Assembly (NCBI RefSeq): GCF_012163145.1
Contig: NZ_JAAVTX010000005.1
Location: 1-64,000 of the forward strand
Source: Falsiroseomonas frigidaquae
Lineage (GTDB): Bacteria > Pseudomonadota > Alphaproteobacteria > Acetobacterales > Acetobacteraceae
Length of the DNA: 64,000 nucleotides
Reading direction: 5' to 3'
Below, one piece after another: positions 10,370 through 33,200 of this stretch. Under the pieces are notes generated by a model, which saw only the letters and a program-made list of their open reading frames with translations, was not told the DNA's origin and searched no databases. Position 1 is the stretch's first letter. Each line of letters opens with the position of its first letter. The position numbers and the translations under genes were made by a program.

Positions 10370-12094
10370 ATGCCGGCCATTCCGGAGGCCTGGCTTGGCG
10401 CGCTGGCCGCCATGGCGATCGGCATCGCCGTCATCGCCGGCATCTATGGCTGGCATATCCTGCCCCCCTGGCACACCGGCTGGATGCTGGAAGGCACGAT
10501 CGGGCCGGACCCGGTGCAGTATTGGCTCGGCTGGACCTATTTCGCCCGCAGCCCCTGGGCCTGGCCACCCGGTGCCAACCCGGATTGGGGGCTGGAGGTC
10601 GGCTCCGGCATCTTCTTCTCCGATTCGATCCCGCTGCTCGCCTTCGCCTTCAAGGCGCTGCGGCCGCTGGTGCAGGTGTCGCAATATTGGGGCCTGTGGA
10701 TCTTCGCCTGCGGCGCATTGCAGGCGCTGCTCGCCTGGCGGCTGGTCGGGCTGGTCACCGCCGACCCGCTGGCACGCCTGGCCGGTGCCGCGCTGTTCGT
10801 GCTGCAGCCGATCCTGCTGAACCGGCTCGGCGGGCATTTCGCCCTGGGTGGGCAGTTCCTGCTGCTGGCCGCGCTGTATCTGTGCCTGACCTCCGCCCCG
10901 GCCTCGGCCCCGGCCTGGCGCCGGCTGGTCGCCTGGGCGGGGCTGGTGCTCGCCGCATCGCTGATCCACGCCTACCTGCTGCCGATGGTCGCGGGCCTCT
11001 GGGCGGCGGATTGGCTGGGCCGCGCGCTGCCACGCGACCGCCGGCCGAAGCCCCTGGCCGCGGAGGCGCTGGCGGTACCCGCGGCGGGTCTGGCCGGGCT
11101 CTGGGCCGGTGGCTTCTTCCTGCTCGGCGGCGGCATGGGCGGCACCTGGGGCGGGTTCGGGGCGATGCAGCTCGACCTGCTGGCGCCCTTCGACCCCAGC
11201 CAATGGGGCCGCTTCCTGCCGCAACTGCCGCGGCCGGATCACCTGGAGGCGCGCGACAGCTATCTCGGCCTCGGCACCATCCTGCTGTTGCTGGCAGGTG
11301 CGGCCGCCTTCCTCTGGCGCCCGAGGCCGGGCCTGCCGCGCCGCTGGCCGCTGCTGGCCGGGCTCGCCGTGATGCTGGCGCTCGCGGTCACCCACCGGGT
11401 TTCCCTGGGTGGGCAGGTGGTGCTGGTGCTGGCGGAGCTGCCGCCGCCGGTGCTGGCGGCGGCCGATGCGCTGCGCGCCTCCGTGCGGTTCTTCTGGCCG
11501 CTGGCCTATGCGCTGATCCTGGGCGCCATCGCCGCCCTGGCGCATGTGCTGGGCGGGCGGCGTACCGGGCTGCTGCTGGCCGCGCTGCTGCTGGTGCAGC
11601 TTACCGATCTGAAGCCGGGCTTCGACCGGCTCGATCGCTTCTTCCGCCCCGCCCCCGCCACCGCCGCGCTGCGCCTGGCGGACCCGTTCTGGATGGCGGC
11701 CACCGCCCGCTACCAGCGCATCCGCCTGGCGCCAACCGGCATGCAGGCCCGGCATTGGGAGGAGGTGGCGGTGCTGGCCGCCACGCGTGGCCTGCCCACC
11801 GATGCGGTCTACCTCGCCCGCATCGACCCGGCGCGGGTCCAAGCGCTGAACGCCGGAACGCTGCACCGCCTGGCATCCGGCCAATACGAGCCGGGCAGCC
11901 TCTATGTGCTCGGCGACGACGCCATGCTGGCGGCGGCCCGCGCCGGCATGGATCCGGCGCGGGACCTGCTGGCGCGCTTCGACGAGGTGTGGGTGCTGGC
12001 GCCGGGCTGGCATGCCCCCATCATGGCGTCGCCTGCTGGCCGATCCCGAACAGACCGCGGAGAAAGCCCGGTGTCAGCGCCGCCAGGGGGTTGA
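10370..12094 (+). CDS. DUF6311-type polytopic membrane protein
   Basis: 574 residues with about nine to ten hydrophobic segments in the first ~450 residues, then a soluble C-terminal part. The segments GPDPVQYWLGWTYFARSPW, GSGIFFSDSIPLLAFAFK and QYWGLWIFACGALQALLAW match the DUF6311 family as I remember it, a GT-C glycosyltransferase-like membrane family often near surface polysaccharide genes. Function unknown. Start chosen at 10370 (MPAIPEAW) just before the first membrane helix; the initiation signal is weak. The 3' end overlaps the opposite-strand DUF3971 gene by 74 bp. Confidence 0.75.
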   Translation: MPAIPEAWLGALAAMAIGIAVIAGIYGWHILPPWHTGWMLEGTIGPDPVQYWLGWTYFARSPWAWPPGANPDWGLEVGSGIFFSDSIPLLAFAFKALRPLVQVSQYWGLWIFACGALQALLAWRLVGLVTADPLARLAGAALFVLQPILLNRLGGHFALGGQFLLLAALYLCLTSAPASAPAWRRLVAWAGLVLAASLIHAYLLPMVAGLWAADWLGRALPRDRRPKPLAAEALAVPAAGLAGLWAGGFFLLGGGMGGTWGGFGAMQLDLLAPFDPSQWGRFLPQLPRPDHLEARDSYLGLGTILLLLAGAAAFLWRPRPGLPRRWPLLAGLAVMLALAVTHRVSLGGQVVLVLAELPPPVLAAADALRASVRFFWPLAYALILGAIAALAHVLGGRRTGLLLAALLLVQLTDLKPGFDRLDRFFRPAPATAALRLADPFWMAATARYQRIRLAPTGMQARHWEEVAVLAATRGLPTDAVYLARIDPARVQALNAGTLHRLASGQYEPGSLYVLGDDAMLAAARAGMDPARDLLARFDEVWVLAPGWHAPIMASPAGRSRTDRGESPVSAPPGG

Positions 12095-15000
12095 CGCTCA
12101 CCGCCGGGTCATCCGCCGGGCCGCTGACCCGGAAGGTCGCCGCGAAAAGCCCGCCGCCCGCCTCCGGCGCGAACAACCGGCCGAGGATCGGGATATTGCC
12201 GAGCAGGGAGTTGAAGAAATAGGCCGGCACGATGGTGCCCGCCATGTTCAGCCGCTGCCGTCGCCGGTCCAGCGTGCCCGTCGCCGTCAGGCCGAGCGAG
12301 GCGGAGAAGGCGCGCGCCTCCCCCAGCGTCAGCACATCCGGCGTCAGGCTGAAGGGCGCGATCAGCCGGCTGAAGCCGAGGCCGGGGCCGGAGGCGGCCT
12401 CCATCAGCCCGTACAGCGTCATCGCCTGCAGCAGCTTGGCCACCGCCGGGGCGCCGCGCACGGCGAAATCGCTCATCTCCGCGGTGCCGGATAGCGGCGC
12501 GCCGGGGCGGTTGCTGGCATAGCTGGCCTGCACCGAGAGCCGCCCGCCTTCCAGCCGCCGCAGCACGTCGAAGCTGCCAAGCAGCGCGCCGGCATCCTCC
12601 GCCTCCAGCCGCAGCGACCGGCCGGCACCGGCCGGCGTGATCCGCGCCTCGAACGGGCCGCGCGGCCCGGCCCGGCCGGACAGGGTGCCCGCTCGCACCA
12701 CGCCGCGGCCGTCCACCCGCACCTGCGCAGTGACGGCCGCCAATTCGCGCCCGGGGCCGAGCAGCACCCGCTCGAACCGCGCATCGGCGGCGAAGGAGGG
12801 GCCGGTCTCGTTGTCCGGCGCGGCCGCGGCCGCATTGCTGCCGTCTTCCGACATGGTCCGCCGCAGATCCAGCACCTGGCCGCGCAGCGTCAGCGCCCAG
12901 GGGCCGCCCGGCTCCAGCGGCGGGCGGGCCTCGCCGGTGAAGCGGCTGTCCTCCACCACGCCTTCCGTCACCGCCACCCGTTCCAGCCGCGTGCCGCGGG
13001 TGAAGCTGGCGCTGCCGCGCAGGCGCATGGCGGGTCCTTCGACGCGGAAGCTCTCGATCGCCGTCAGATCCTCCCCGGCCAGGCGCAGCACCATCTCGCC
13101 GCCCGCATTCTGGCCGGGCGGCTTGGACCAGGCGAGCGGGTCGATCATCAGCCGGGCCTGGCTCAGATCGGCCCGCACCGTGGCGGTGCCCTGGCCGTTG
13201 CGGCGGCGCTCGGTGCGCACATCGAGGCCGACCTGGCCCTCGATCACCTCGGAAAAGGCGAGGCCCAGCGCCACCAGCTTCCGCGCATCGGTCTCCGCCC
13301 GCACCGTCTCCCGCATCACCACCTGGCCGGGCGGGCCGTTGCGGAAATCCATCTCCACCGTCAGCCGCGCGGCGATCTCGGCGAGCGTCGCGGTGCCGCT
13401 GGCACGCAGGCCGTTATTGTCCACCGTCAGTTCCACCGTGCCGCGTTCCAGCGGCCGGCCGAGCAGCACATCAGCCATCCGCACCTCCCGCAGCCGGGCC
13501 TGGACGCGCAGTTGAAGCTGCTCCACCGGCAGGTCGGACAGCAGCGGGAAGGCGATGTTGAGCCGCGCCTCCATGCTGCCGCGCGGGTCCTTCACCGGAA
13601 ACGGCCGGCGTTCGAACAGCCGCAGGCGCGGGTGCTGCACCACGGCCAGCGCATCCGGGATGGGGCCGACCAGGTTGAATTCCATCTGCGCGGTTTCCTG
13701 CCCGCCCGGCGGCAACAGGAAGCGGATGGTTCCGTCCCGCACCGTCACCGCGCCACCGGATTGCCGGCCGCCGGTGACCTGCATGCGGATCTCCTCCAGC
13801 CCGAAGGTGACGGTGCCGGCGGCACCCTCGGCGGGCGGGATCGGGCGCAGCCAGTGCACGGTGGCCTCCGCCACCTGCAGCGTACCGTCCAGGCTGGTGA
13901 TCCGCGCATCGGCCAGCCCCGGCGCGGCCTCGGCCGCGATGCGCCAGCGGCCGTCGCGGGCGGTGCCGGCGGTCAGGTTCTGCACGATCCAGCTTCGCAC
14001 ATGCGGTGCCAGGTCTTCCGGCCAGTGGCGGGGCAGGTCGGCGATCGGCACCGCATCCAGCCCCAGCGTCGCCTCCCCGCGCCAGCCCGCGCCGGCACGG
14101 GCGGCCTCCGCCTGCACGGTCAGACTGGGCGGCGTGGCGCCGTCCAGGCGCAGCAGGGCGCGCGGGATGGCGATGCGGCCCGGCTCCGCCGCCACATCCA
14201 GCTCCAGCCTGGACATGGCGACCCGGCGGCCCTCGCCGAGATCCAGCACGCCGGGGCCGGTGGTCAGCAGGGCCTGCAGGTTGCGGAAGCCACCATCGGC
14301 GCCGAGCCGGGCGCGCGCCTCGATCCGTGCGGTGGCGTCCAGCCGGGCCAGCGGCGCCAGCGCCGGGGCGGCCTGTGCCAGCAATGCGGGCCGCAATTCC
14401 GGCAGCAGCAGGTGCAGCGCCAGCGCGGCCGGCCCGCCACCCGGCACCGCATCCAGCTCCGCCCCGATGGTCACCGGCACGCGTTCGCCGCCCAGCAGCA
14501 GCGTCGCCACCGCCTCCCCGATCAATCCGCCGCCGAGCCGGCGGCGCAGCGTGACATCCGCGCCATCCAGCACCCAGGTCAGGCCGAGCGCCGCATCCTG
14601 CACCACGATCCGCCCACCGATGATCCGCAGCGACTGCAGGGCCGCAAGCGGCGTCCGGTCCGAAGCCGGGTTCAGCAGCTCGGCCAGGACGGATTCGAGG
14701 CCCGTATCGGAGAGACCGGTGTCTGGTGGCACCGTATCCGCCGGCACCGTATCCGCCGGCACCGTATCGGACGGCACGGCATCGGCGGGAACCGGATCAG
14801 CGGTGGCCGGCGCCGTGCCCGCATCCCCCAGCAGCAGGGAGAACCCGCCCCCCGCGTCGCGGCGCAGGGTCAGTACCGGCTGGTGGAATTCGATCCGGCG
14901 CGGCGCCAACTCGCCGCGCAGCAGCCAGGACAGCGAAAGGCTTACCGCGGCATCCGGCAGGTCCATCCGCACCGCGCCCCCCGGCTCCACGAGGCGGACG

Positions 15001-15284
15001 CCGGACAGGCGCAGCTCGACGGGTGTGAGATGACCCTCGCGCCAGCCCTGCCAGCCGATGCTGGCCTGGCCGACCTCCAGCAGCGCCTCCGGCGGGGTGC
15101 CGTCGGCGCCCGGGGCGTTCAACTGGTCCGCGATCGCCTCCGCCAGGAAAGGCAGCTCGATCGGCCCCTGCGAGAGACGGAAGGCCGCCGCCCCGGTGGC
15201 CAGCAGCAGCAGCACCGCAAGCGTGCAGCTCAGGCGCAGGGCGCGATGCGCCTCCCGCGCCACTTGACCGGCGGCGCGCCTCAT
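12021..15284 (-). CDS. DUF3971/AsmA-like (YhdP-family) envelope protein
   Basis: 1087 residues. One N-terminal membrane anchor (LSCTLAVLLLLATGAAAF) is followed by a very long beta-rich, repeat-like body typical of AsmA/YhdP proteins, which are thought to bridge the inner and outer membranes and move phospholipids. The C-terminus (TATGTLDRRRQRLNMAGTIVPAYFFNSLLGNIPILGRLF) is the characteristic AsmA-2/DUF3971 end. An Asp/Pro/Val/Ala low-complexity linker encoded by 15-bp repeats sits near residues 160-190. Start 15284 (MRRAAGQV) precedes the anchor; an upstream in-frame extension overlaps glnE and is unlikely. It starts 17 bp from the divergent glnE, as in many alphaproteobacteria. Confidence 0.85.
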   Translation of the reverse strand: MRRAAGQVAREAHRALRLSCTLAVLLLLATGAAAFRLSQGPIELPFLAEAIADQLNAPGADGTPPEALLEVGQASIGWQGWREGHLTPVELRLSGVRLVEPGGAVRMDLPDAAVSLSLSWLLRGELAPRRIEFHQPVLTLRRDAGGGFSLLLGDAGTAPATADPVPADAVPSDTVPADTVPADTVPPDTGLSDTGLESVLAELLNPASDRTPLAALQSLRIIGGRIVVQDAALGLTWVLDGADVTLRRRLGGGLIGEAVATLLLGGERVPVTIGAELDAVPGGGPAALALHLLLPELRPALLAQAAPALAPLARLDATARIEARARLGADGGFRNLQALLTTGPGVLDLGEGRRVAMSRLELDVAAEPGRIAIPRALLRLDGATPPSLTVQAEAARAGAGWRGEATLGLDAVPIADLPRHWPEDLAPHVRSWIVQNLTAGTARDGRWRIAAEAAPGLADARITSLDGTLQVAEATVHWLRPIPPAEGAAGTVTFGLEEIRMQVTGGRQSGGAVTVRDGTIRFLLPPGGQETAQMEFNLVGPIPDALAVVQHPRLRLFERRPFPVKDPRGSMEARLNIAFPLLSDLPVEQLQLRVQARLREVRMADVLLGRPLERGTVELTVDNNGLRASGTATLAEIAARLTVEMDFRNGPPGQVVMRETVRAETDARKLVALGLAFSEVIEGQVGLDVRTERRRNGQGTATVRADLSQARLMIDPLAWSKPPGQNAGGEMVLRLAGEDLTAIESFRVEGPAMRLRGSASFTRGTRLERVAVTEGVVEDSRFTGEARPPLEPGGPWALTLRGQVLDLRRTMSEDGSNAAAAAPDNETGPSFAADARFERVLLGPGRELAAVTAQVRVDGRGVVRAGTLSGRAGPRGPFEARITPAGAGRSLRLEAEDAGALLGSFDVLRRLEGGRLSVQASYASNRPGAPLSGTAEMSDFAVRGAPAVAKLLQAMTLYGLMEAASGPGLGFSRLIAPFSLTPDVLTLGEARAFSASLGLTATGTLDRRRQRLNMAGTIVPAYFFNSLLGNIPILGRLFAPEAGGGLFAATFRVSGPADDPAVSVNPLAALTPGFLRGLFGIGQQATP
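14728..14802. repeat. Five 15-bp tandem units inside the DUF3971 gene
   Basis: Units at 14728, 14743, 14758, 14773 and 14788; the first two are identical (GGCACCGTATCCGCC) and the rest progressively diverge. On the coding strand each adds a PADTV-like pentapeptide, making a flexible acidic/proline linker. This looks like recent slippage expansion in a permissive linker. Confidence 0.85.
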
Positions 15285-15301
15285 CGCCACGCTGCACCCC
15301 A

Positions 15302-18300
15302 ATGCCGAATACCCGGTCGTTCCCCGCCCAACCCGATCCCGCAAAGCCCGCCAGCGGGATGGGGCTGCCCGCCAATGGCTTGCCACGGCCGCATGATGCG
15401 GAGGCGGCCGCCGTGCTCGCCGGCCGCTTCGCGGAACGTGGCGCGGCGGAGCGCGGCTTCGGCGCCACGCCGGAAGGCGCCGCGCTGCTGGCGGCTCTTG
15501 GCGGGCACAGCCCCTATCTGGCGGACCTGGCGCTGCGCGAATCGGCCACGCTGCTGCGGCTGGTGGAACGCGGGCCGGATGCCGCCTTTGCCCTGGCGCT
15601 GGACCCGCTGGGCCGCGCCGACCCGGAAGCGACGCGCCCCGGCGTCGCCAGCCTGCTGCGCCAGGCCAAGCGACAGGCGGCGCTGATCGCGGCGGTGGCC
15701 GACATCACGGGGCTCTGGGCGCTGGACCGGGTGACGGGCGCGCTGTCCGACCTCGCCGATGCCTGCACGGACTACGCCTGCGCCCATCTGCTGCGGGAGG
15801 CGCAGGCCAGGGGCGACCTGAAGCTGGCCGGCGGCGCCGCACGGCATGACCCGCGCGCCACCTGCAAGGGGTCGGGCCTCGTGGTGCTCGGCATGGGCAA
15901 GCTCGGCGGGCGGGAGCTCAACTACTCCTCGGATATCGACCTCATGGTGCTGTATGACCCGGAGGTTGCAACCTACGACGCCGACCGCGCCGGCGCCATC
16001 TATGTCCGCCTCGCGCGTGATCTGGTTCGCCTGATGGATGAGCGGACGGAGGGTGGCTACTGCTTCCGGACCGATCTGCGCCTGCGGCCGGACCCGGCGG
16101 CCACCCCGCTGGCCGTCAGCCTGCCGGCCGCCATCATCTACTACGAGAGCATGGGCCAGAACTGGGAACGCGCCGCCATGATCAAGGCGCGCCCGGTGGC
16201 GGGGGACCGCGCGCTGGGCGAGCATTTCCTGCGCGAGATCCGCCCCTTCGTCTGGCGCCGCCACCTGGATTTCGCCGCCGTCGCGGACATCCACTCGATC
16301 AAGCGCCAGATCCACGCCCATAAGGGTCACAAGGGCGCGCATGCGGAGGTGCAGGTCGCCGGCCACGACGTGAAGCTCGGCCGCGGCGGCATCCGCGAGA
16401 TCGAGTTCACGGTGCAGGTGCTGCAGCTGATCTGGGGCGGCCGCGACCCGGTGCTGCGCGACCCGACCACCCTCGGCGCCCTGGCCGCGCTGGCCGCGGC
16501 GGGCAAGATCGAGCGGCGCGCGGCGGCCGACCTGGCCGATGCCTATGGCTTCCTGCGCCAGGTGGAACACCGGCTGCAGATGGTGGCGGACCGGCAGACC
16601 CACCGGCTGCCGGAGGATGCGGAGGGCCTGGCTAATATCGCCTCCTTCATGGGGTTCGAGGGGCCGGAGGCCTTCTCCGCCGCGCTGGTCGGCCATCTCA
16701 GGCGGGTCGAGCGACGCTATGCCGGGCTGTTCGAAACCTCCCCCGATCTTTCGGCCGGCGACGATGTGCAGGGCGATCTCGTGTTCACCGGGGTGGAGGA
16801 CGACCCGGCGACGCTCGCCACGCTGCGCGGCCTGGGCTTCCAGAATCCGGCCGCGGTCGCCGCCACCGTGCGCGGCTGGCATCACGGCCGGGCGCGCGCC
16901 ACGCGCAGCGAAAGGGCGCGGGAGTTGCTGACCGCGCTGATGCCCAGCCTGCTGGCCGCGCTGGCGAAGCAGCCGCAGCCGGATGCCGCGCTGATGCGGC
17001 TGGATGCCGCCCTGGCGCGGATGAGTACGGGTGTGCAGGTGCTGTCCCTTCTGGCGCGCAACCCGGCGCTGCTCGACCGGCTGGCCTTCGTTCTGGGGGC
17101 GGCGCCGCAACTGGCCGACCACTTCGCCCGCAACGCCGCGGCGCTGGACGGGTTGCTGGCCGGCCACGCCGCACCCGGCACCGACCCCGCCGCCTCCCTG
17201 CCCGCCTTGGTGAAGGACGCCCGCTTCCTGGAGGAGGCGCTGGAGGCGGCGCGGCGGCTGGTGACGGAGGGCAAGTTCGAGATCGATGCCGCCGCGCTGG
17301 AAGGCCGGCTGGACACGGATGCCGCAGGCCTCGCCCGCAGCGGGCTGGCGGATGCCGCGATCGGCGCGCTGCTGCCGCGCATCACGCAGGATTTCGCCCA
17401 GCGCCACGGCAAGGTGGCAGGCGGCGCGCTGGGGGTGGTGGCGCTCGGCAAGCTCGGCGGGCGGGACATGCTGCCGGGCTCCGACCTCGACCTGATCCTG
17501 GTCTATGACCATCCGGCGGAGGCGCCGGAAAGCAAGGGCGGCGCCAAATCCCTCGCGCCCTCCCAGTATTTCGCGCGGCTGGCCAATCAGATGGTCGGCG
17601 CGCTGACGGCGCCGGGGGCGGAGGGGCGGCTGTACGAGGTGGATATGCGGCTGCGGCCCTCCGGCTCGAAGGGGCCGGTTGCGGTCTCATTGTCCTCCTT
17701 CGCCCGCTACCACACGGAATCGGCCTGGACCTGGGAACGCATGGCGCTGACCCGGGCCCGCTTCGTCGCCGGCGCCCCGGCGCTGAAGCGCAAGGTGGAG
17801 GCGGCGATCCGACAGGCGCAGACCCGGGCGGCGGATGCCGCGCAGGTGCTGGCCGATGCGCGGGCGATGCGGGCGCGCATGCTGCGCGACCTGCCGGCGG
17901 ATGGACCGTGGGATGTGAAGCACATGCCGGGCGGGCTGGTGGAGGTGGAGTTCATCTCCCAGGCGCTGCAGGTGGCGCATGCCCATCGCCTGCCGGCGGT
18001 GCTGTCCCCCACCACCCGCCTGGCGCTGGCGGCGCTGGCCAAGGCGCGCATCCTGCCGGAGGCGGAGGCCGCCGCGCTGGTAGCGGCCGACCGGCTGTGG
18101 CGGGCCATCACCGCGCATCTGCGCCTGACCGTCGGCCGCTGGCCGGAGGAAGCGCTGCCGGAGCCGGTGGCGCTGGCGCTGGTCGCCGCCACCGGGCACC
18201 TGCTGCCCGCAGCGCCTGCCGCCGGGGCGGCGATTGACCAACCGGCCTACCGCGCACAGATGCGCGCCGTCGCGCAACAGGTGCGCGCCAGCTTCATCCG

Positions 18301-24484: not shown

Positions 24485-25117
24485 GTGCGTATCGCGCTGA
24501 TCCACGCCCTGCGGCATTCGCCGCCGCCGATCGAGGCCGCCTTCGCGGAGGCCTGGCCGGAGGCGCGGCTGATGAACCTGCTGGATGACAGCCTCTCGGC
24601 CGATCTGGCGCGGGACGGCGCGCTGACGCCGGCAATGACGGAGCGGTTCCTGACGCTCGGCCGCTATGCGCGCGGCACCGGGGCGGATGGGGTGCTGTTC
24701 TCCTGCTCCGCCTTCGGACCCTGCATCGAGGCTGTGGCGGCGGAACTCGCGCCGATCCCGGTGCTGAAGCCGAATGCGGCGGCGATCGAGGAAGCGGTGG
24801 CGATCGGCCCGCGCATCGGCCTGCTGGCGACCTTCCCCGGCACGCTCGCCTCCATGCCGCCGGAATTTCCGCCCGGCGTACAGGTGGTGCCCTGCCTGGC
24901 GGAGGGCGCGCTGGCGGCGCTGGATGCCGGCGATGTGGAGGCGCATGACCGGCTGGCGGCGGAGGCGGCGCGGCGGTTGGTGGACTGCGACGTGATCCTG
25001 CTCGGCCAGTTCAGCCTGGCGCGGGCGGCCCGGGCGGTTGCCGCCACCACGAACTTGCCCGTGGTGACGACGCCGGGGAGCGCGGTGCGGCAGCTGAGGG
25101 CGCTGCTGGGCGCATGA
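24485..25117 (+). CDS. Asp/Glu/hydantoin racemase-superfamily protein lacking the second Cys
   Basis: 210 residues, GTG start at 24485 (VRIALIHALRHSPPPIE). The first catalytic Cys is present in GVLFSCSAFGPCIEAV. The second half carries DCDVILLGQFSLARAARA where the usual motif is LGC-T/A; the expected Cys is Gln. Two-Cys racemisation is therefore unlikely; a one-Cys isomerase or decarboxylase is possible. The last 107 bases overlap the opposite-strand htpX-like gene. Confidence 0.75.
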   Translation: MRIALIHALRHSPPPIEAAFAEAWPEARLMNLLDDSLSADLARDGALTPAMTERFLTLGRYARGTGADGVLFSCSAFGPCIEAVAAELAPIPVLKPNAAAIEEAVAIGPRIGLLATFPGTLASMPPEFPPGVQVVPCLAEGALAALDAGDVEAHDRLAAEAARRLVDCDVILLGQFSLARAARAVAATTNLPVVTTPGSAVRQLRALLGA

Positions 25118-26141
25118 CCACGGTCGCGTCCGCGTCGGGCGCCGCGATCTCCGGCAGGTCGCGCGCGCCGGCGTAGCGTTGCAGCGCCTCGATCCGCTTC
25201 TCGATCGGCGGATGGGTGGCGAACCAGGCGGGGCCGAGGCTGTTCGCGCCGTCATGCAGCAACAGGGCGCGGACCTGGCTGGGCATGCCCTCCATCGCCT
25301 CCTGCCCCGCCAGCTTGCGCAGCGCGCCGGCCATGGCGTCCGGGTCCGCCGTCATCTCCACCGCACCGGCATCGGCCAAATATTCGCGGTTGCGCGAAAG
25401 CGCCATGCGCAGCGCGATGGACAGCACCCAGGCCAGCGCCGCGATGGCCAGCGCCAGCAGCACGAGCAGCATGGCGCCACCCCTGCCCTTGCCGTTGCCG
25501 CTTCCGCTGCTACCGGTGCCACCCGGCAGGCGGCGGATCCGGCCGAGGCGCAGGCCGCGCCACATCACCTCCCCCACCATCGAGATCACGCCGGCGAACA
25601 CCGCCGCCACCACGCCGAGCCGGGCATCGCCGTTGCGGATATGGGTCAGTTCATGCGCCAGCACGGCGCGCAGTTCACGCGGCGCCAGCGCGTTCATCAG
25701 CCCACGCGTCACCGTCACCGCGCCCTTGTCGCGCGTCAGGCCGGAGGCGAAGGCGTTGCGCGCCTCGGTCTCGATCACCGCCAGGCGGGGCATCCGCATG
25801 CCGCGGCTGATCGCCAGTTCCTCCGTCATCGCCCAGAGCGCCGGTTCCTGGTCCCGCGTCACCGGCCGGGCGCCGGAGATCACGTCCAGGATCCATTGGT
25901 TGGAGAACCAGGCAATGGCGAACCAGATGCCGGAGATCAGCAGCGCCACCGGGATGGCGGCCGGCAGCAGGCCTACCGAATCCCGCAGCCCCTGGCCGAA
26001 ATCATCGGTGCCTGCCGCCGCGAACAGCAGCGCGACGGACCAGGTGATCAGCGCCAGCAGCACCGGGAAGCCGGCCAGCAGCAGCAGCGACCGCAGGCCG
26101 GTATTCCAGATATGCGTGCGCAGGCCATGGGTCGGCAGCAT
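25011..26141 (-). CDS. M48-family membrane metalloprotease, HtpX-like
   Basis: 376 residues. Two N-terminal membrane helices, zinc motif VLAHELTHIRNGD, further hydrophobic helices, and the third ligand in SRNREYLADAGAV. THPPIEKRIEAL is the usual M48 C-terminal mark. HtpX proteases act in inner-membrane protein quality control. The last ~55 residues are a Pro/Ala/Ser-rich tail encoded opposite the racemase-like gene. lemA lies 15 bp upstream on the same strand, a common pairing. Confidence 0.9.
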   Translation of the reverse strand: MLPTHGLRTHIWNTGLRSLLLLAGFPVLLALITWSVALLFAAAGTDDFGQGLRDSVGLLPAAIPVALLISGIWFAIAWFSNQWILDVISGARPVTRDQEPALWAMTEELAISRGMRMPRLAVIETEARNAFASGLTRDKGAVTVTRGLMNALAPRELRAVLAHELTHIRNGDARLGVVAAVFAGVISMVGEVMWRGLRLGRIRRLPGGTGSSGSGNGKGRGGAMLLVLLALAIAALAWVLSIALRMALSRNREYLADAGAVEMTADPDAMAGALRKLAGQEAMEGMPSQVRALLLHDGANSLGPAWFATHPPIEKRIEALQRYAGARDLPEIAAPDADATVVMRPAAPSAAAPRSPASSPRASSWWRQPPGPPAPG

Positions 26142-26156: not shown

Positions 26157-26714
26157 TCAGAACTTCACCTGCGGCGCATTCTTCGTCGCCGCCCGCTCGG
26201 CCTCATCCAGCTCGAAGAAGCCCTTGGGGCCGAAGCCGAGGGAGCCGGCGAAGAACACCGCCGGGATCGACTGGATCGAGGCGTTGTATTCCGCGACGCT
26301 GTTGTTGAAGAAGCGCCGGGCCGCGGCCAGCGTGTTCTCCACATTGGACAGCTCGCTCTGCAGCGACAGGAAGTTGGTGTTGGCCTTCAGGTCCGGATAG
26401 GCCTCGGACAGCGCGAACAGCCGGCTGAGCGCGGCACCGAGCTGGCCTTCGGCGGCGGAGGCCTGTTCCGGGCCCTGCGCGCGCACGGCGGAATTGCGCG
26501 CGGCGATCACCGCCTCCAGCGTGCCGCTCTCATGCGCGGCGTAGCCCTTCACCGTCTCGACCAGGTTGGGGATCAGGTCGTGCCGCTGCTTGAGCTGCAC
26601 CTCGATATCCGCCCAGGCCTGCGCCACGGATTGCCGCAGCGAGACCAGGCGGTTGTAGATGACGACCAGCCACAGCAGCAGCAGGACGACGAGACCGAGC
26701 AGCACCCATTCCAC
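26157..26714 (-). CDS. lemA: LemA-family protein
   Basis: 185 residues. One N-terminal membrane helix (WVLLGLVVLLLLWLVVIYN), then the coiled LemA body with DIEVQLKQRHDLIPNLVETVKGYAAHE, SEAYPDLKANTNFLSLQSEL and ENTLAAARRFFNNSVAEYN. The family has no firm biochemical role but is repeatedly next to M48 proteases, as here. Confidence 0.94.
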   Translation of the reverse strand: MEWVLLGLVVLLLLWLVVIYNRLVSLRQSVAQAWADIEVQLKQRHDLIPNLVETVKGYAAHESGTLEAVIAARNSAVRAQGPEQASAAEGQLGAALSRLFALSEAYPDLKANTNFLSLQSELSNVENTLAAARRFFNNSVAEYNASIQSIPAVFFAGSLGFGPKGFFELDEAERAATKNAPQVKF

Positions 26715-26744
26715 GGGCAGTATCCCCCAATGCCGGCGCGGATG

Positions 26745-27413
26745 TTACGCGGCCGATGCGCGCTCCGATAGGATGGCGTCGGCGCGGCGGAACGCATCCG
26801 CCATGCGGGCCGCCGGCATGGCGCCGCTGAACAGCAGGTGCCGGTCCATCAGGAAGGAGGGCACGCCGGAAATGCCGCCCTGGCGTGCCGCCAGGTCCTC
26901 CGCCAGCACCTCGGCCTTGAGATCCTCGCCCGCCAGCATGGCGGCGACGGCATCCGGCGGCAGCCCGGCGGCGCCGGCCAGCTCCACCAGCGTCGGTACG
27001 TCGCCGACGTCGCGGCCTTCGTGGAAGTAGCCGCGGAACAGCGCCTCCAGCACCTCGTTCTGCAGGCCCGCGGCGGCGGCCATGCGGATGACGCGGTGGG
27101 CCGCCACGGAATTCGGCGTGCGCTGCATCAGGTCGTGCCGGAACTCCACCCCGGCGGCGCGGCCGGCCTCGGCCACATTGGCGTCCAGCTCCCGCCCACG
27201 GGCCTCGGAGCCGAATTTCTGCGCCCGGTAGACCGCCCGCACCACGCCTTCCTGCGGCATGTCCGGGTTGAGCTGGTAGGGGCGCCAGCGGACGTTGAAG
27301 CGCAGCCCTTCCGCCGCCAGCTCGGCCAGCGCGGCATCCAGGTTGTGCTTGCCGATCCAGCACCAGGGGCAGACCACGTCGGACAGCACATCGAGGGTAC
27401 GCATCGTCGTCAT
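26745..27413 (-). CDS. DsbA-family oxidoreductase, FrnE/2-hydroxychromene isomerase-like
   Basis: 222 residues, cytosolic (no signal peptide). Thioredoxin-fold with a CPWC active site in VLSDVVCPWCWIGKHN, the inserted helical domain, and the cis-Pro loop GISGVPSFLMDRHLLFSGA. This is the FrnE-like branch, linked to oxidative-stress thiol chemistry in other bacteria. Start at 27413 (MTTMRTLD) is the family N-terminus; a 28-residue upstream extension is open but unlikely. Confidence 0.9.
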   Translation of the reverse strand: MTTMRTLDVLSDVVCPWCWIGKHNLDAALAELAAEGLRFNVRWRPYQLNPDMPQEGVVRAVYRAQKFGSEARGRELDANVAEAGRAAGVEFRHDLMQRTPNSVAAHRVIRMAAAAGLQNEVLEALFRGYFHEGRDVGDVPTLVELAGAAGLPPDAVAAMLAGEDLKAEVLAEDLAARQGGISGVPSFLMDRHLLFSGAMPAARMADAFRRADAILSERASAA

Positions 27414-27543
27414 GGCCGGGCTCCTCCCGCGGGTTGGATCGATCTGTCGCCCATCCTGGGGTCCGGGCGCAACCTCCGGATGCGGCCGATTTACCATGGG
27501 TTAGGTGATTGAGGCGCATTCTGGACGCTTCGAGGACCCAGCA

Positions 27544-30500
27544 ATGCAAGTCTCCGCCACCTCCAGCGCGGCCGGGGCGCGGCACCTCGCCACGCTGCTC
27601 GCCAGCCTGACCACCGGGCAGATCGGCATGCTGCAGCCGGAGATCTTGGGCCGGGTGCCGCCGGTGGCGTTGGCGGGGCTTGCAACCGGCCAGGTGGCGG
27701 CGCTGTCCACCAGCCAGGTCGCGGCGCTGAAGCCGGCGCAGATCGCCGGGCTGGGCAGCACGCAACTCGCCGCGCTCGACAGCACCCAGGCGGCGGCGCT
27801 GACCAGTACGGCGCTGGCTGGGCTGACCGGTGCGCAGGCGGCTTCGCTTTCCGCCACCGTCTTCGGCGCGCTGGCCACCTCGCAGATCGCCGCCCTGCCG
27901 CCGGCCGCCATCGCCGGGCTGTCCACGGAAAGGCTGGCCGCGCTCGGCGCCACCCAGGCGGCAGCGCTGGACCGCAAGCAATTGCTGGCGCTGAAGCCGG
28001 CCCAGGCGACGGCGCTGGCGACCACGGCGATCGCGGCGATGGGCACCAGCCAGATGGCGGCCTTGCCCACCTCGGCCATCGCGGCGCTTGGCACGGCGCA
28101 GCTTGCGGCGCTGGCGACGACCCAGGTGGCGGCGCTGAGCCGGTCCCAGGTCGCGGCCTTCGGCGTGGCGCAGATCAGCGCGCTGGCGCCGGCGCAACTG
28201 GCCGTGCTCGGCCCGCAGCAGCTTGCAGGATTCACCGGGGCGGAGGTGGCGGCGCTGTCCACCACGGCACTCGCCGGCCTGTCCACGGACCAGATCGGCG
28301 GTCTCGGCGCGGCGCAGGTGAAGGCGATTGCGCCGGACCGGCTGGCGGCGCTGAGCGAAAGCCAGGTCGCCGCGATCTCGGCCTCCGCCATGGCGGTGCT
28401 GACGCTCGGGCAGGTGCAGGCGCTGGCAACCACCCAGGCGGGCGCCCTGACCACGACGCAGATCCGCGCGCTGGGCAGCGTCCAGGCCCGGGCGTTGACG
28501 ACGATGCAGATGGCGGCGCTGTCCACCACCCAGCTTGCGGCTCTGACCCCGGCGGCGCTGGCCGGGGTGGAGGGGGCGGATTTCGATGCGCTGTCCACCG
28601 GCCAGATCGCCGCCTTCGGCACCGCGCAGATCGCGGCGCTGAAACCGGCGCAGGTCGCGGCGATGGGCACCACGACGCTGGCGGCGCTGGACACGGCGCA
28701 ATTCGCCGCACTGTCGCGCAGTGCCATCGGCGGGCTGACCACGGCACAGCTCGGCAGCCTGGGCACCACGCGGCTCGCCGCGCTGACCACGACTCAGATC
28801 GGCGGGCTGGGCAGCGCGCAGGCGGCGGCGCTGGACCTTTCGGCGCTGGGGACCACGCAGATCGCGGCGCTGGCGCGCACCGCGGTGCCGGGGCTGGCCG
28901 GCACGGCGCTGGCGGCGCTTGCCTCCACCGCGCTGGCCGCGCTCGGCACGGCGCAGCTTGCCAATCTCGGCTCCGCCCAGGTGGCGGCGTTGGGCAGCGC
29001 GCAGGTGGCGGGGCTGGCCGGAACCCAGGTGGCGGCGCTGTCGAAGGCCGCGTTGGCCGGGCTGGCGACGACGCAGCTTGCGGCGCTGGCCACCAGCCAG
29101 GTTTCCGCCATGGGCAGCGCGCAGCTGGGTGGCCTGGGCAGCAGCCAGCTGGCCGGGCTGGCGGCGACGCAGCTGGCCGCTTTGTCCAGCAGCCAGGTCG
29201 CCGGGCTCGATGCGGCGGCGCTGTCCGGGCTGGTCGGCGCGCCGCTGCAGGCGCTGGATGTGGCGGGGCTGGGCAGGCTGCAATTGATGGGCTTCGGCAG
29301 CGCGCAGCTTTCGGCGCTGGCCCCCTCGCAGATCCAGGCGCTGTCGAGCACGCAGCTTGGCGGGCTGGATCGCTACCAGGTGCAGGCGCTGCCGGATGGC
29401 ATGATGGCGCTGCTCGGCACCGCGCAGATCGGCGCGCTGACCGCCGGCGGCATGCTGGGGCTGGAGGCGGCGGACCTCGCCGCGCTGTCCACCGACCAGG
29501 CGGCGGCGCTGAAGCGCACCCAGGTGGCGGCGCTCGCCAGCACCCAGGTCGGGTTGCTGGGTGCCACCCAGCTCGCGGCGCTGACGACCACGGGGCTGGC
29601 CGGGCTGGGTTCGGCGCAGGCGGCGGCGCTGGGCAGTACGGCGCTGGCCGGGCTGGGCAGCGCGCAATGGGCGGTGCTCGGCACCGCCGCGCTTGGCGGC
29701 CTCGCCGCCACGGCGCTGGAGGGGATCGGCAGCGCCGGGCTGGGCGCGCTGGGCGCGACGCAGATCGCCGCCCTCGGCACGGCGCAGTTGATGGCGGCGA
29801 CCAGCAGCCAGCTTGCGGCGCTGGACACGACCCAGCTCGCCGGGCTGGGCGCCACCCAGATCGGCCCGCTGGACGGCAGCCAGCTGGCCGCGCTGGCGAC
29901 CGGGCAGGTCGCGGCCCTGGCGCCCGCCGCGCTGGGCGCCCTCGGCACCGCGGCCGCCGGGCAATTGGCGGCGACGCAGATCGCGGCACTCGGCACGGCG
30001 CAGATGGCAGGGCTTGCCGCCACCGCGATCGGCGCGCTGGGAACGACGCAGTTGGCGGCGCTGGCGACCAGCCAGATGGCGGCGCTCGGCACGGCGCAGC
30101 TGGGCGCGCTCGGCAGCAGCCAGGTGGCGACGCTGGCAACGACGCAGCTCGCCGCGATCACCGCCCCCGGCATCGCCGGCCTGGCGGTCGCGGGGCTGGA
30201 CGGGACGCAATGGGGCGCGCTGGCGACCGGCCAGCTTGCCGCGCTCGGCTCGGTGCAGGTCGCGGCCGTGTCCTCCGCACAGGTGGCGGCGCTGGCGAGC
30301 ACGCAGTTGCAGGCGCTGTCGGCTGGCGGCATGGCGGGGCTGGCGCCGCAGGGGCTCGCTACGGCGCAGATCGCGCTGTTCGACACGGCCCAGCTGGCGG
30401 CACTCGGCAGCGGTCAGGTGGCGGCGCTGGCGGCGACCCAGGTGGCCGCCCTGGCCTCCACCCAATTCGCCGCCCTGTCGGCCACGGCGCTGGCCGGGCT

Positions 30501-31263
30501 GGACCTGGCGCTCGCCCTGGACCGGCTGCCGGCGCTGACGGCAATTCAGGCCGGCGGGCTGGGCGCGAGCCAGGTCGCGGCGCTGTCGACCACGGCGCTG
30601 GCCGGGCTGGCCGATACGCAGCTTGCCGGCCTGTCCGCCACCGGCATCGGCGGCCTCGGCACCACGCAGCTGGAGGCGCTGGGCACGCGGCTCGGCGGGC
30701 TGGGATCGGCGCAGATGGCGGGGCTGGGATCGATGCAGGTCGCCAGCCTGTCCACCACCACCATCGCGGCGCTATCCGCCAGCCAGATCGGCGGCCTGTC
30801 CTTCGGCGGCACCAGTGGGCTTGCCACCAGCCAGATCGCGGCGCTCGGCACGGCGCAGGTGGCGGCGCTGCGCGGCCAGCAATTCCTGGCGCTGGGCACC
30901 GCGCAGGTGGCGGCGCTGTCCCTCACCCAGCTTGCCGCGCTGGGCGGCACCCAGGTGCAGGCGATGTCCCCCGCCCAGCTCGGCGCGTTGGACAGCGCCC
31001 AGGTTCAGGCTCTGGGCGCCACCGCCATCGCCGCGCTCGATGCCGAGCAGGTGGCGGCGCTGGCGCCGGCGGATGTGGCGGCGATCGAGCCGGGAGACTT
31101 CCTCGGCATGGCGACGGCCGCCGTGCAGGCGCTGGATGCCGGGCAGATCGCGGCGGTCACCACGGACCAGCTTGCCGCCATGCGCGCCCGGCAGATCGAG
31201 GCCTTCAGCCGGACACAGCTCTATCAGATGACGCCGGCGCAGCTGACCGCGCTGTACGGCTGA
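27544..31263 (+). CDS. Octapeptide-repeat protein, function unknown
   Basis: 1239 residues, almost entirely an 8-residue repeat with consensus Q-[VIL]-A-A-L-x-[ST]-[ATS]; position 1 is Q or A, positions 2 and 5 are hydrophobic. If uninterrupted from about residue 35 to the end it would be ~150 units; a few phase slips are visible (for example near DLSALGTT). There is no Cys, very few charged residues, no signal peptide and no membrane helix. The N-terminal ~30 residues (MQVSATSSAAGARHLATLLASL) and C-terminus (RTQLYQMTPAQLTALYG) are the only non-repeat parts. Start 27544 follows GAGGA by ~9 nt; GTG 27505 is an alternative. It lies directly before the convergent aminotransferase (stop to stop 0 bp). 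I do not recognise a characterised family. Confidence 0.8.
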   Translation: MQVSATSSAAGARHLATLLASLTTGQIGMLQPEILGRVPPVALAGLATGQVAALSTSQVAALKPAQIAGLGSTQLAALDSTQAAALTSTALAGLTGAQAASLSATVFGALATSQIAALPPAAIAGLSTERLAALGATQAAALDRKQLLALKPAQATALATTAIAAMGTSQMAALPTSAIAALGTAQLAALATTQVAALSRSQVAAFGVAQISALAPAQLAVLGPQQLAGFTGAEVAALSTTALAGLSTDQIGGLGAAQVKAIAPDRLAALSESQVAAISASAMAVLTLGQVQALATTQAGALTTTQIRALGSVQARALTTMQMAALSTTQLAALTPAALAGVEGADFDALSTGQIAAFGTAQIAALKPAQVAAMGTTTLAALDTAQFAALSRSAIGGLTTAQLGSLGTTRLAALTTTQIGGLGSAQAAALDLSALGTTQIAALARTAVPGLAGTALAALASTALAALGTAQLANLGSAQVAALGSAQVAGLAGTQVAALSKAALAGLATTQLAALATSQVSAMGSAQLGGLGSSQLAGLAATQLAALSSSQVAGLDAAALSGLVGAPLQALDVAGLGRLQLMGFGSAQLSALAPSQIQALSSTQLGGLDRYQVQALPDGMMALLGTAQIGALTAGGMLGLEAADLAALSTDQAAALKRTQVAALASTQVGLLGATQLAALTTTGLAGLGSAQAAALGSTALAGLGSAQWAVLGTAALGGLAATALEGIGSAGLGALGATQIAALGTAQLMAATSSQLAALDTTQLAGLGATQIGPLDGSQLAALATGQVAALAPAALGALGTAAAGQLAATQIAALGTAQMAGLAATAIGALGTTQLAALATSQMAALGTAQLGALGSSQVATLATTQLAAITAPGIAGLAVAGLDGTQWGALATGQLAALGSVQVAAVSSAQVAALASTQLQALSAGGMAGLAPQGLATAQIALFDTAQLAALGSGQVAALAATQVAALASTQFAALSATALAGLDLALALDRLPALTAIQAGGLGASQVAALSTTALAGLADTQLAGLSATGIGGLGTTQLEALGTRLGGLGSAQMAGLGSMQVASLSTTTIAALSASQIGGLSFGGTSGLATSQIAALGTAQVAALRGQQFLALGTAQVAALSLTQLAALGGTQVQAMSPAQLGALDSAQVQALGATAIAALDAEQVAALAPADVAAIEPGDFLGMATAAVQALDAGQIAAVTTDQLAAMRARQIEAFSRTQLYQMTPAQLTALYG
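27650..31240. repeat. 24-bp-period coding repeat
   Basis: The octapeptide gene has a DNA period of 24 bp, with GCGGCGCTG- and CAG-like codons recurring in register. The period opens long spurious frames on both strands across this stretch. Units are diverged rather than identical, so the array is old or under coding selection. Confidence 0.8.
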
Positions 31264-32493
31264 TCAGACCGCGTTCTGCGCATCGCCAGGCGAAGCGGCC
31301 TGAGGGGCGAAGCTTCGAGCCCAGGCCTGCAACCGTTCCGGCACCTGGGCGAGCACCTCCGCCCCCGCATTGGCGAAGGCGAGCCGCAGGTGGCGCTGCT
31401 GGCCGGGACCGAAGAAGGGGCCGGGCAAGGTCATCAGCCCCTGTTCGGCGGCCAGGGATTCGGCGGCTGCCTCGGCATCCGGCGCGCCTTCCGGCAGGCG
31501 GAGATAGGCGAAATAGGTGCCGATGGCGTCCAGCCGCCAGCCGGGCAACTGCCCGACCCCGGCGCGGAACAGCCGGGCACGTTCCGCCATCAGGGCGCGG
31601 TTGCCGGCGCGCCATTCGGCCAGCGCCGGGATGGCCCAGGTGAGCGCCGTCTGCGCCGGCCGCGCCGGGCAGATCTGCCAGGTATCCAGCGCCTTCGCCA
31701 GTTGCGCCCGGAAGCCCGGCCCGGCCGCCACCGCGCCGACCCGGTGGCCCGGCACGCAATAGGCCTTGGAGAAGGAGTACAGATGCACCAGCCCGTCCCG
31801 CCAGGCGGCATCCGCGAACAGGGCGTGCGGCGGGGATTGGGCCTCGGTCAGGAAGTCCCGGTAGGTTTCGTCCAGCACCAGCCAGACGCCGCGGGCGCGG
31901 CACAGCTCGGCGAAGGCGTGGATAACCTCCGGCGGATAGACCGCGCCGGTCGGGTTGTTCGGCGTGACCAGCACCAGGGCGCGCACCGGGTTGGCATCCA
32001 TCAGCGCGGCGGCCTCGGCCGGGTCCGGCACGAAGCCGGCCTCCGCACGGGCCGGCAGCGGCACGGCGCGGACCCCGCGCATGGTCAGGGCCATCTGGTG
32101 GTTGAAGTACCAGGGGGCAGGCAGCATCACGGCATCGCCGGGCGCGGCCAGCACCGCCATGGTCATGGCGAAGGCCAGGTTGCAGCCGGCGGTGATGGCG
32201 ATATCCGCCGCCGTGACCCCGGCCCCGTAGAAGCCGGAGATGTCGGCCGCCAGGGCTTCCCGCAGCGGCGCATCGCCGTCGTTCGCGCCATAGCCGGCGC
32301 AGGCGACGCTGCCGGCGGCCTCCGCCAGCCTTGCGAGCAATTCGGGTGGCGGCGGGTAGCCGGGCACCGCCTGGGTCAGGTCCAGCGCCGGGCCGGCGCC
32401 GCCGGCATAACGGGCCGCCCAGGCGCGGGCGGCCGGGATCGGCGGTTCGGCGGTGGCGCGCAACGGGCCGGAGAGTGGGGCGGAGAGCATCAT
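31264..32493 (-). CDS. PLP-dependent class I/II aminotransferase
   Basis: 409 residues. Fold-type I features: GYGANDGDAPLREALA, ITAGCNLAFAMTM, TPNNPTGAVYPPEV, LVLDETYRDFL, Schiff-base Lys in LYSFSKAYCVPGHRVG, and the C-terminal LRLAFANAG with the carboxylate-binding Arg. Substrate not assignable from sequence. Start 32493 overlaps the DNA-glycosylase stop by 4 nt (ATGA), so the two are coupled. Confidence 0.87.
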   Translation of the reverse strand: MMLSAPLSGPLRATAEPPIPAARAWAARYAGGAGPALDLTQAVPGYPPPPELLARLAEAAGSVACAGYGANDGDAPLREALAADISGFYGAGVTAADIAITAGCNLAFAMTMAVLAAPGDAVMLPAPWYFNHQMALTMRGVRAVPLPARAEAGFVPDPAEAAALMDANPVRALVLVTPNNPTGAVYPPEVIHAFAELCRARGVWLVLDETYRDFLTEAQSPPHALFADAAWRDGLVHLYSFSKAYCVPGHRVGAVAAGPGFRAQLAKALDTWQICPARPAQTALTWAIPALAEWRAGNRALMAERARLFRAGVGQLPGWRLDAIGTYFAYLRLPEGAPDAEAAAESLAAEQGLMTLPGPFFGPGQQRHLRLAFANAGAEVLAQVPERLQAWARSFAPQAASPGDAQNAV

Positions 32494-33200
32494 CCCGCCA
32501 AACTGCCGCCAGCCGCTTCCGCCGGCAATGCATCCTCGATCAGCGGCCGGCCGGTAACCTGCCGCCAATGGTGCCAGAACAGCCGCGCCGCCAGGCCGCG
32601 CCAGGGCTGCCAGGCGCGGGCGATTTCCGCCAGTTGCTTCGGCGTCGGCCGCGCCGGCAGCCGCTTCAGATGCGCGACGGCGGCGGCCAGCGCGATGTCG
32701 CCGCTCGGGAAGATATCCGGCCGGTCATGTGCGAACAGCAGGTGCACCTCCGCCGTCCAGCGGCCGAGGCCGCGAATGGTGCAGAGATGCGCCACGGCTG
32801 CCTCATCCGCCATGCCGTCCAGTGCATCCAGCCGCAGCGAGCCATCCAGGCAGGCGGCGGCGAGCGCCCGGGCATGCGCGGCCTTGGGGCGCGACAGGCC
32901 GCCGATGCCGCAGAGCACATCATCATGAAGGCCGACCAGCACCGCAGGGTCCAGCGCGCCCGGAATGGCAGATAGCCGGCGCCAGATCGCGCCCGCCGCC
33001 TGGTTCGAGATCTGCTGGCCGCAGATGGTCCGCAGCAGGCCGGGCAGGCCCGCCGGGCGGCTGCGCCAGGGCAAGGGGCCAGCGGCTGCCTCGATGGCGG
33101 CGAGGTCCGGATCGGCCTGGACCAGCGCCGCCATCGCCTCCCGCACCCAGGGGGGCGGGTCCGGGAAGAAGGGCGGCGGGGACGCAGGAGAGAGGGTCAT
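32490..33200 (-). CDS. DNA-3-methyladenine glycosylase II-like (HhH-GPD)
   Basis: 236 residues. TICGQQISNQAAGAIWRRL and the helix-hairpin-helix IRGLGRWTAEVHLLFAHDRPDIFPSGDIAL with the catalytic Asp identify the AlkA/HhH-GPD family of alkylation-repair glycosylases. No Fe-S cluster Cys at the C-terminus, consistent with AlkA rather than Nth/MutY. Divergent from the response regulator; 239 bp between starts. Confidence 0.88.
   Translation of the reverse strand: MTLSPASPPPFFPDPPPWVREAMAALVQADPDLAAIEAAAGPLPWRSRPAGLPGLLRTICGQQISNQAAGAIWRRLSAIPGALDPAVLVGLHDDVLCGIGGLSRPKAAHARALAAACLDGSLRLDALDGMADEAAVAHLCTIRGLGRWTAEVHLLFAHDRPDIFPSGDIALAAAVAHLKRLPARPTPKQLAEIARAWQPWRGLAARLFWHHWRQVTGRPLIEDALPAEAAGGSLAG

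Follow-up and report, generated by a model that had tools for sequence, protein, structure and literature searches.

The ALTTAQ repeat, catalogued in Pfam as PF20080, is a tandem octapeptide about which little has been written: among 5.39 million open PMC papers we found none naming ALTTAQ, PF20080 or HeliScrew. The last of these names belongs to HeliScrew4 (PDB 9zem chain A, 120 residues), a solved chain of similar octapeptides that, judging from its name, is a designed protein. A second body of work concerns cytoplasmic glycosyltransferases, among which FlmG belongs to family GT41. In the published accounts, Caulobacter FlmG O-glycosylates flagellin in the cytoplasm (PMC7591256) and HMW1C glycosylates an adhesin (PMC3983070, PMC3012730), so that in both systems a cytoplasmic glycosyltransferase acts on a protein before its export. 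Here we describe a gene in a 64,000-nucleotide stretch of Falsiroseomonas frigidaquae DNA (contig NZ_JAAVTX010000005.1, positions 1 to 64,000; hereafter the window) whose product consists almost wholly of such octapeptides. With a probability of roughly 0.45, we read the window protein as a free-standing PF20080 alpha-solenoid that serves as a passive scaffold, probably outside the cell, and works with a separately encoded system of larger ALTTAQ arrays.

A free-standing octapeptide array of the PF20080 family

We refer below to the window gene and to three parts of it:
27544..31263 (+): DNA of the window gene, a 1239-residue open reading frame, the whole protein being a PF20080 (ALTTAQ) octapeptide array
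27547..31215 (+): residues 2-1224, which the unit parse divides into 146 octapeptides with the consensus Q-L/V/I-A-A-L-x-T/S-T/A and 9 register breaks
27661..28413 (+): the modelled 251-residue stretch, predicted to form one helix of 4-6 residues per unit
31144..31260 (+): the C-terminal 39 residues, in which R1214, R1216 and F1221 are invariant in 8/8 orthologues, all of which end in LYG or LFG

Against Pfam, the window protein matched PF20080 (ALTTAQ_rpt) over 42 stretches with E 9.1e-151 and 489.7 bits (curated cut-off 26.4), and it shares both the period of 8 and the consensus of that repeat. It also matched HeliScrew4, at E 4.4e-14 by sequence and 4.1e-26 by orthologue profile; nearly the whole of that chain is made of octapeptides of the T-P-E-Q-I-A-A-L kind, a likeness of sequence, although it is more charged and has 15 units compared with 146. 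An earlier reading of the window, made from its sequence only, had described a 1239-residue octapeptide protein at 27544-31263, which is right, and had held that the repeat fits no known family, which the two matches overturn: the window protein is a new member of a catalogued, little-studied family. That sequence-only reading had set a profile hit to a well-studied repeat family against its own proposal; what we found is a family that is catalogued but on which the open PMC literature yielded no paper. Within Pseudomonadota, PF20080 occurs in at least 28 of the 398 genomes sampled, the window's own included. The window protein had no NCBIfam match at E 10 and no tblastn match among phage records at 1e-5, it matched 3 of 72,556 plasmid records in part only, and an Rfam scan of 26500-32600 gave 0 matches.

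AlphaFold2 predicts an alpha-solenoid for the modelled stretch, with a mean predicted local distance difference test score (pLDDT) of 91.2 and a predicted template modelling score of 0.79; a model of 1,200 residues reached pLDDT 81.6. On these predictions, the window protein is very probably an alpha-solenoid with one short helix per octapeptide, in line with the earlier guess of a new-looking solenoid. Each unit would contribute a short helix (T-x-Q-[VIL]-A) followed by a tight A-L-x turn. A unit of eight residues with a single helix is, to our knowledge, one of the shortest in any alpha-solenoid; helical repeats of the mesothelin and armadillo type, which span 30-40 residues, compare with the model at Z <=8 and a root-mean-square deviation of 5-10 Å, perhaps reflecting only a common helix arrangement. 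A solenoid of such short helices could serve protein design, as HeliScrew4 suggests. Separately, a Foldseek comparison of the model with viral models returned three uncultured phage proteins (E <1e-3, template modelling score <=0.27).

The periodicity that the sequence-only reading had proposed was borne out by the self-identity of the translation, which reaches 0.35 at lag 8 and 0.358 at lag 16 and peaks at all multiples of 8, compared with 500 residue shuffles in which the maximum over lags 8, 16, 24, 32 and 40 averaged 0.154 and never exceeded 0.179. The unit parse assigns 1168 of the 1239 residues to the 146 octapeptides. Position 1 is Q in 100 units and position 2 is L, V or I in 119; A occupies positions 3 and 4 in 94 units each and L position 5 in 124, while position 7 is S/T in 79 and position 8 is T/A/S in 112. 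The array stands alone and shows no higher-order repeat, unlike most of the large PF20080 relatives observed, which have a 384-residue super-repeat and an adjoining GT41 gene.

The regular Thr/Ser residues at positions 7-8 of many units are what would be expected if a Thr ladder made this an ice- or surface-binding protein. We consider that explanation very improbable, since S/T occurs in about half of the units at either position (0.53 at position 7, 0.46 at position 8), positions 7-8 are the least conserved, and a Pfam search to E 10 returned no ice-binding family. Between the window protein and its orthologue in genome G003, Q (0.91) and L (0.93) are the best-conserved positions of the unit and position 8 the least conserved (0.57); the value for position 8 falls to 0.24 against G004.

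Conservation was assessed in the genome of origin (G000) and 15 further genomes of the genus, and full-length orthologues were found in 7 of these 15. Identity to the window protein is 76% in G003, 63% in G001 and 62% in G008, and 44-46% in a second group (G004, G006, G013 and G014). The alignment with G003 differs by 8 gap columns, and its identity is 0.755 in place, compared with a mean of 0.228 and a maximum of 0.357 when the sequences are shifted by 1-49 whole units. Units are thus individually kept, which indicates an old, fixed array and not a slipping tandem repeat; they are individually fixed by selection, unlike those of the large genus arrays described below. Ratios of nonsynonymous to synonymous substitution (dN/dS, NG86) are 0.35, 0.49 and 0.56 for the window gene against G003, G001 and G008, 0.27-0.41 for pairs inside the second group and 0.69-0.87 for pairs that cross groups, the last being of little use because dS is compressed by a third-position GC content of at least 0.93. 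The possibility, raised earlier, that the frame is not conserved (dN/dS near 1) finds no support in the close pairs (0.35; 0.27-0.41), while the values between groups run up to 0.87.

The window frame is a real gene. Its ATG at 27544 lies 7 bases downstream of an AGGA (27533-27536, by eye), a spacing that fits this start, and the same frame is already open from a GTG at 27505, which would give 1252 residues. GC by codon position is 0.747/0.601/0.928. Other frames are also open across hundreds of codons, including long ones on the opposite strand (e.g., 26530-30465, 1311 residues) that follow from the high GC content, which is the case for a spurious frame in repetitive GC-rich DNA. We rejected that explanation, which has next to no chance of being right, because it is contradicted by full-length orthologues, by divergence that is highest at third positions (0.194/0.129/0.349 against G003), by the dN/dS of 0.35 and by the PF20080 match. 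As had been stated from the sequence, the protein has no Cys and few charges (D+E 38, K+R 27), and the absence of a membrane helix holds as well (0 of 1221 19-residue windows above Kyte-Doolittle 1.6).

Large arrays, GT41 genes and a type I exporter

Besides the window gene, the genome of origin carries two further PF20080 genes. The large array, 1067 residues from its likely start, lies on contig C13 and is adjoined by a pair of genes for TPR-GT41 glycosyltransferases; no other GT41 match was found in this genome. Past the GT41 pair lie genes for a methyltransferase, an HlyD adaptor (TIGR01843, 280 bits, above the cut-off of 208.65), an ATP-binding cassette (ABC) exporter whose closest family is TIGR01846 (E 1.2e-183, 612 bits, below the cut-off of 725.55), and a nucleoside-diphosphate-sugar epimerase/dehydratase-like protein.

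Much of this arrangement recurs within the genus. In all 9 of the genomes with a large array, GT41 adjoins it (as a gene pair in eight, as a single gene in G011), and the HlyD orthologue is present in exactly those 9 of the 16 genomes. The ABC-HlyD pair accompanies the large array in 8 of the 9, with the HlyD gene of G001 on another contig; the sugar gene and methyltransferase were seen at the large-array locus in G000, G003 and G008 only. All four large arrays tested (L030, L034, L035 and L037) have a 384-residue (48-unit) super-repeat at 68-83% identity, with sub-spacings of 136 and 248 residues and stretches of up to 152 bases that recur exactly at the DNA level.

Outside the genus, we searched 24 of the 35 PF20080-positive genomes listed for GT41 (8/8 from one survey and 16/27 from the phylum sample). 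Among the matches listed, GT41 adjoins the array in 8 of the 24 (G020, G021, G026, G030, G032, G033, G408 and G429) and lies within about 11 kb of it in 3 (G103, G134 and G162); in 6 more (G022, G029, G123, G142, G146 and G174) GT41 is present with none near a listed array. The clearest case is that of G429, where a 5446-residue ALTTAQ frame with a different tail is followed by GT41 and then by OEP, HlyD and ABC genes, with both HlyD (TIGR01843) and ABC (TIGR01842) above cut-off.

Several further features were seen at these loci. The tail of the giant G429 array (L130 3-3185, +) is rich in DxDGDG-like motifs by eye and has no Pfam or NCBIfam match. A 3767-residue frame in G162 (L134 5251-16554, -) holds several GT41 matches within one open frame, a 4152-residue protein (L133 664-13122, +) from a genome without GT41 combines LysM, SH3_3 and ALTTAQ matches, and a phage-type integrase gene (L043 3777-5198, -) lies near the array and GT41 gene of G033.

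The simplest reading of the large arrays, by analogy with the FlmG and HMW1C systems, makes them O-glycosylated surface proteins that leave the cell by type I export. That the adjoining GT41 glycosylates them in the cytoplasm, and that the adjoining type I system then exports them, is in our view probable. In contrast to those two systems, glycosylation here would act on an alpha-solenoid array, and export would be of type I.

The window gene and the large-array system

The window protein belongs to the same repeat family as the large genus arrays and is found in the same genomes, yet those arrays differ from it in their Ser/Thr-rich turns, their internal duplication and their GT41 in cis. We infer that it is a Ser/Thr-poor companion of the large-array system: an elongated, passive structural scaffold of fixed length, probably surface-exposed, that would work with the large ALTTAQ protein, presumed to be glycosylated by GT41 and exported by the type I system, as a second export substrate or as a partner. 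That it is exported by, or associated with, the GT41/type I system is a tentative conclusion, and its own export or glycosylation is likewise something we infer from this association. An unlikely, more far-reaching version would make ALTTAQ arrays the acceptors of an unreported surface-glycoprotein pathway, with TPR-GT41 acting in the cytoplasm on exposed Ser/Thr turns of giant short-helix solenoids that a type I exporter of their own would carry to the surface, and the window protein its conserved second component, a Ser/Thr-poor fixed-length ruler or co-assembling strut that is exported or assembled in trans. The neighbourhood link to GT41 and type I export is what turns an anonymous PF20080 repeat into a surface-glycoprotein hypothesis, and the novelty would lie in this possible pathway, as the protein itself joins a known family.

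The evidence for a connection is co-occurrence. The window gene or an orthologue (a window-type gene) is found in 8 of the 9 genus genomes that carry a large array together with GT41 at it and HlyD, compared with none of the other 7 (Fisher p 0.0014, uncorrected for descent); conversely, all 8 genomes with a window-type gene have a large array, GT41 adjoining it, and HlyD. The exception, G011, is an assembly of 290 contigs, and LemA, a marker beside the window gene, was likewise not found there. All four parts (window-type gene, large array, GT41 and HlyD) are missing from G002, whose LemA is 93% identical to the window's, compared with 90% for that of G008. The genes around the window gene are:
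25011..26141 (-): peptidase M48, flank of the window gene
26157..26714 (-): LemA family protein, flanking marker for the empty-site comparison
26745..27497 (-): DSBA-domain protein, its gene divergent from the window gene
31264..32568 (-): class I/II aminotransferase, its gene convergent with the window gene and used as a flanking marker

LemA is present in 15 of the 16 genomes. Its distance to the aminotransferase is 4.6 kb, with the array inside, in G000, G003 and G008, and 0.7-2.1 kb in 11 genomes, leaving no room for the array. Both flanks are common to G003 and G008; G001 keeps the DSBA side only, its aminotransferase lying elsewhere than LemA. The second-group window-type gene sits at another site, beside Hsp33, GTP cyclohydrolase and L-PSP genes.

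Several observations weigh against a partnership. The co-occurrence may reflect shared descent. In none of the 8 genomes does a GT41 match share a contig with the window-type gene, and no HlyD orthologue lies beside that gene in any of them, the nearest known being about 156 kb off on the same contig in G001. In 7 of the 24 genomes searched outside the genus (G114, G251, G254, G288, G315, G331 and G449), PF20080 arrays occur with no GT41 found in the genome among the matches listed. The 8 window-type arrays have 1.36-1.70 Ser+Thr per unit, fewer than 12 of 13 GT41-adjacent arrays (1.66-2.74), a comparison in which G103 and the DUF1217 protein described below are left out, several arrays end at contig ends and orthologous arrays are not independent; the window-type arrays thus look as if they were not a glycosylated substrate. 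Among the GT41-adjacent arrays, the large genus arrays have 2.5-2.74 in 6 of 7 (1.80 in G011) and six arrays of other genera 1.66-2.22; two arrays without GT41 nearby have 1.69-1.77, and the G134 array, with GT41 about 11 kb off and counted in neither group, has 2.98. Although the C-terminal 32 residues of the window protein and six large-array ends look alike, their match ranks 1-50 among all offsets, no better than many internal stretches, so no shared export signal is established. Inspection by eye, the only one made, showed no signal peptide.

Much of this is what would be expected of an intracellular solenoid, acting as scaffold, filament or spacer, that is never exported and is functionally unrelated to the GT41/type I locus. 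It would lack a signal peptide and Cys, as observed, and the window gene is monocistronic among housekeeping genes, with no exporter or GT41 beside a window-type gene in 8/8 genomes. Such an explanation is a serious one, and a purely cytoplasmic scaffold is nearly as likely as a companion of the large-array system. Against it stand the co-occurrence with exporter and GT41 (8/9 vs. 0/7 genomes) and the joint absence from G002; type I secretion substrates themselves carry no N-terminal signal peptide. The sequence-only reading had seen no obvious cluster here and had left partners unnamed: with DSBA, LemA, M48 and aminotransferase as neighbours, the former stands, and none of the candidate partners adjoins the window gene, although GT41 genes and a type I exporter adjoin its large paralogue.

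The genome of origin also offers a flagellar precedent for the family:
L031 6048-7337 (+): 430-residue DUF1217 protein with a PF20080 insert, the units lying between two DUF1217 halves, at a flagellin-FlbT-FlaF locus

The genes for FlbT, flagellin and FlaF precede this one, and its product shares PF20080 units with the window protein, from which it differs in its flanking DUF1217 halves and flagellar neighbours. A flagellum-associated role for the window protein is nevertheless improbable, given that it has no DUF1217 match at E 10 in Pfam and that no flagellar gene is found among its scanned neighbours. In G010 and G015, a DUF1217/ALTTAQ gene and a GT41 match lie some 2.4 kb apart.

Elsewhere in the window, we observed a 1121-residue protein (12021-15386, -) with a YhdP match of 43.3 bits, just below the curated cut-off of 46, as well as a 3558-residue frame (48061-58737, -) that, analysed in two segments, matched SdrD_B over 9 stretches, RTX calcium-binding repeats over another 9, and DUF11, a large, adhesin-like protein.

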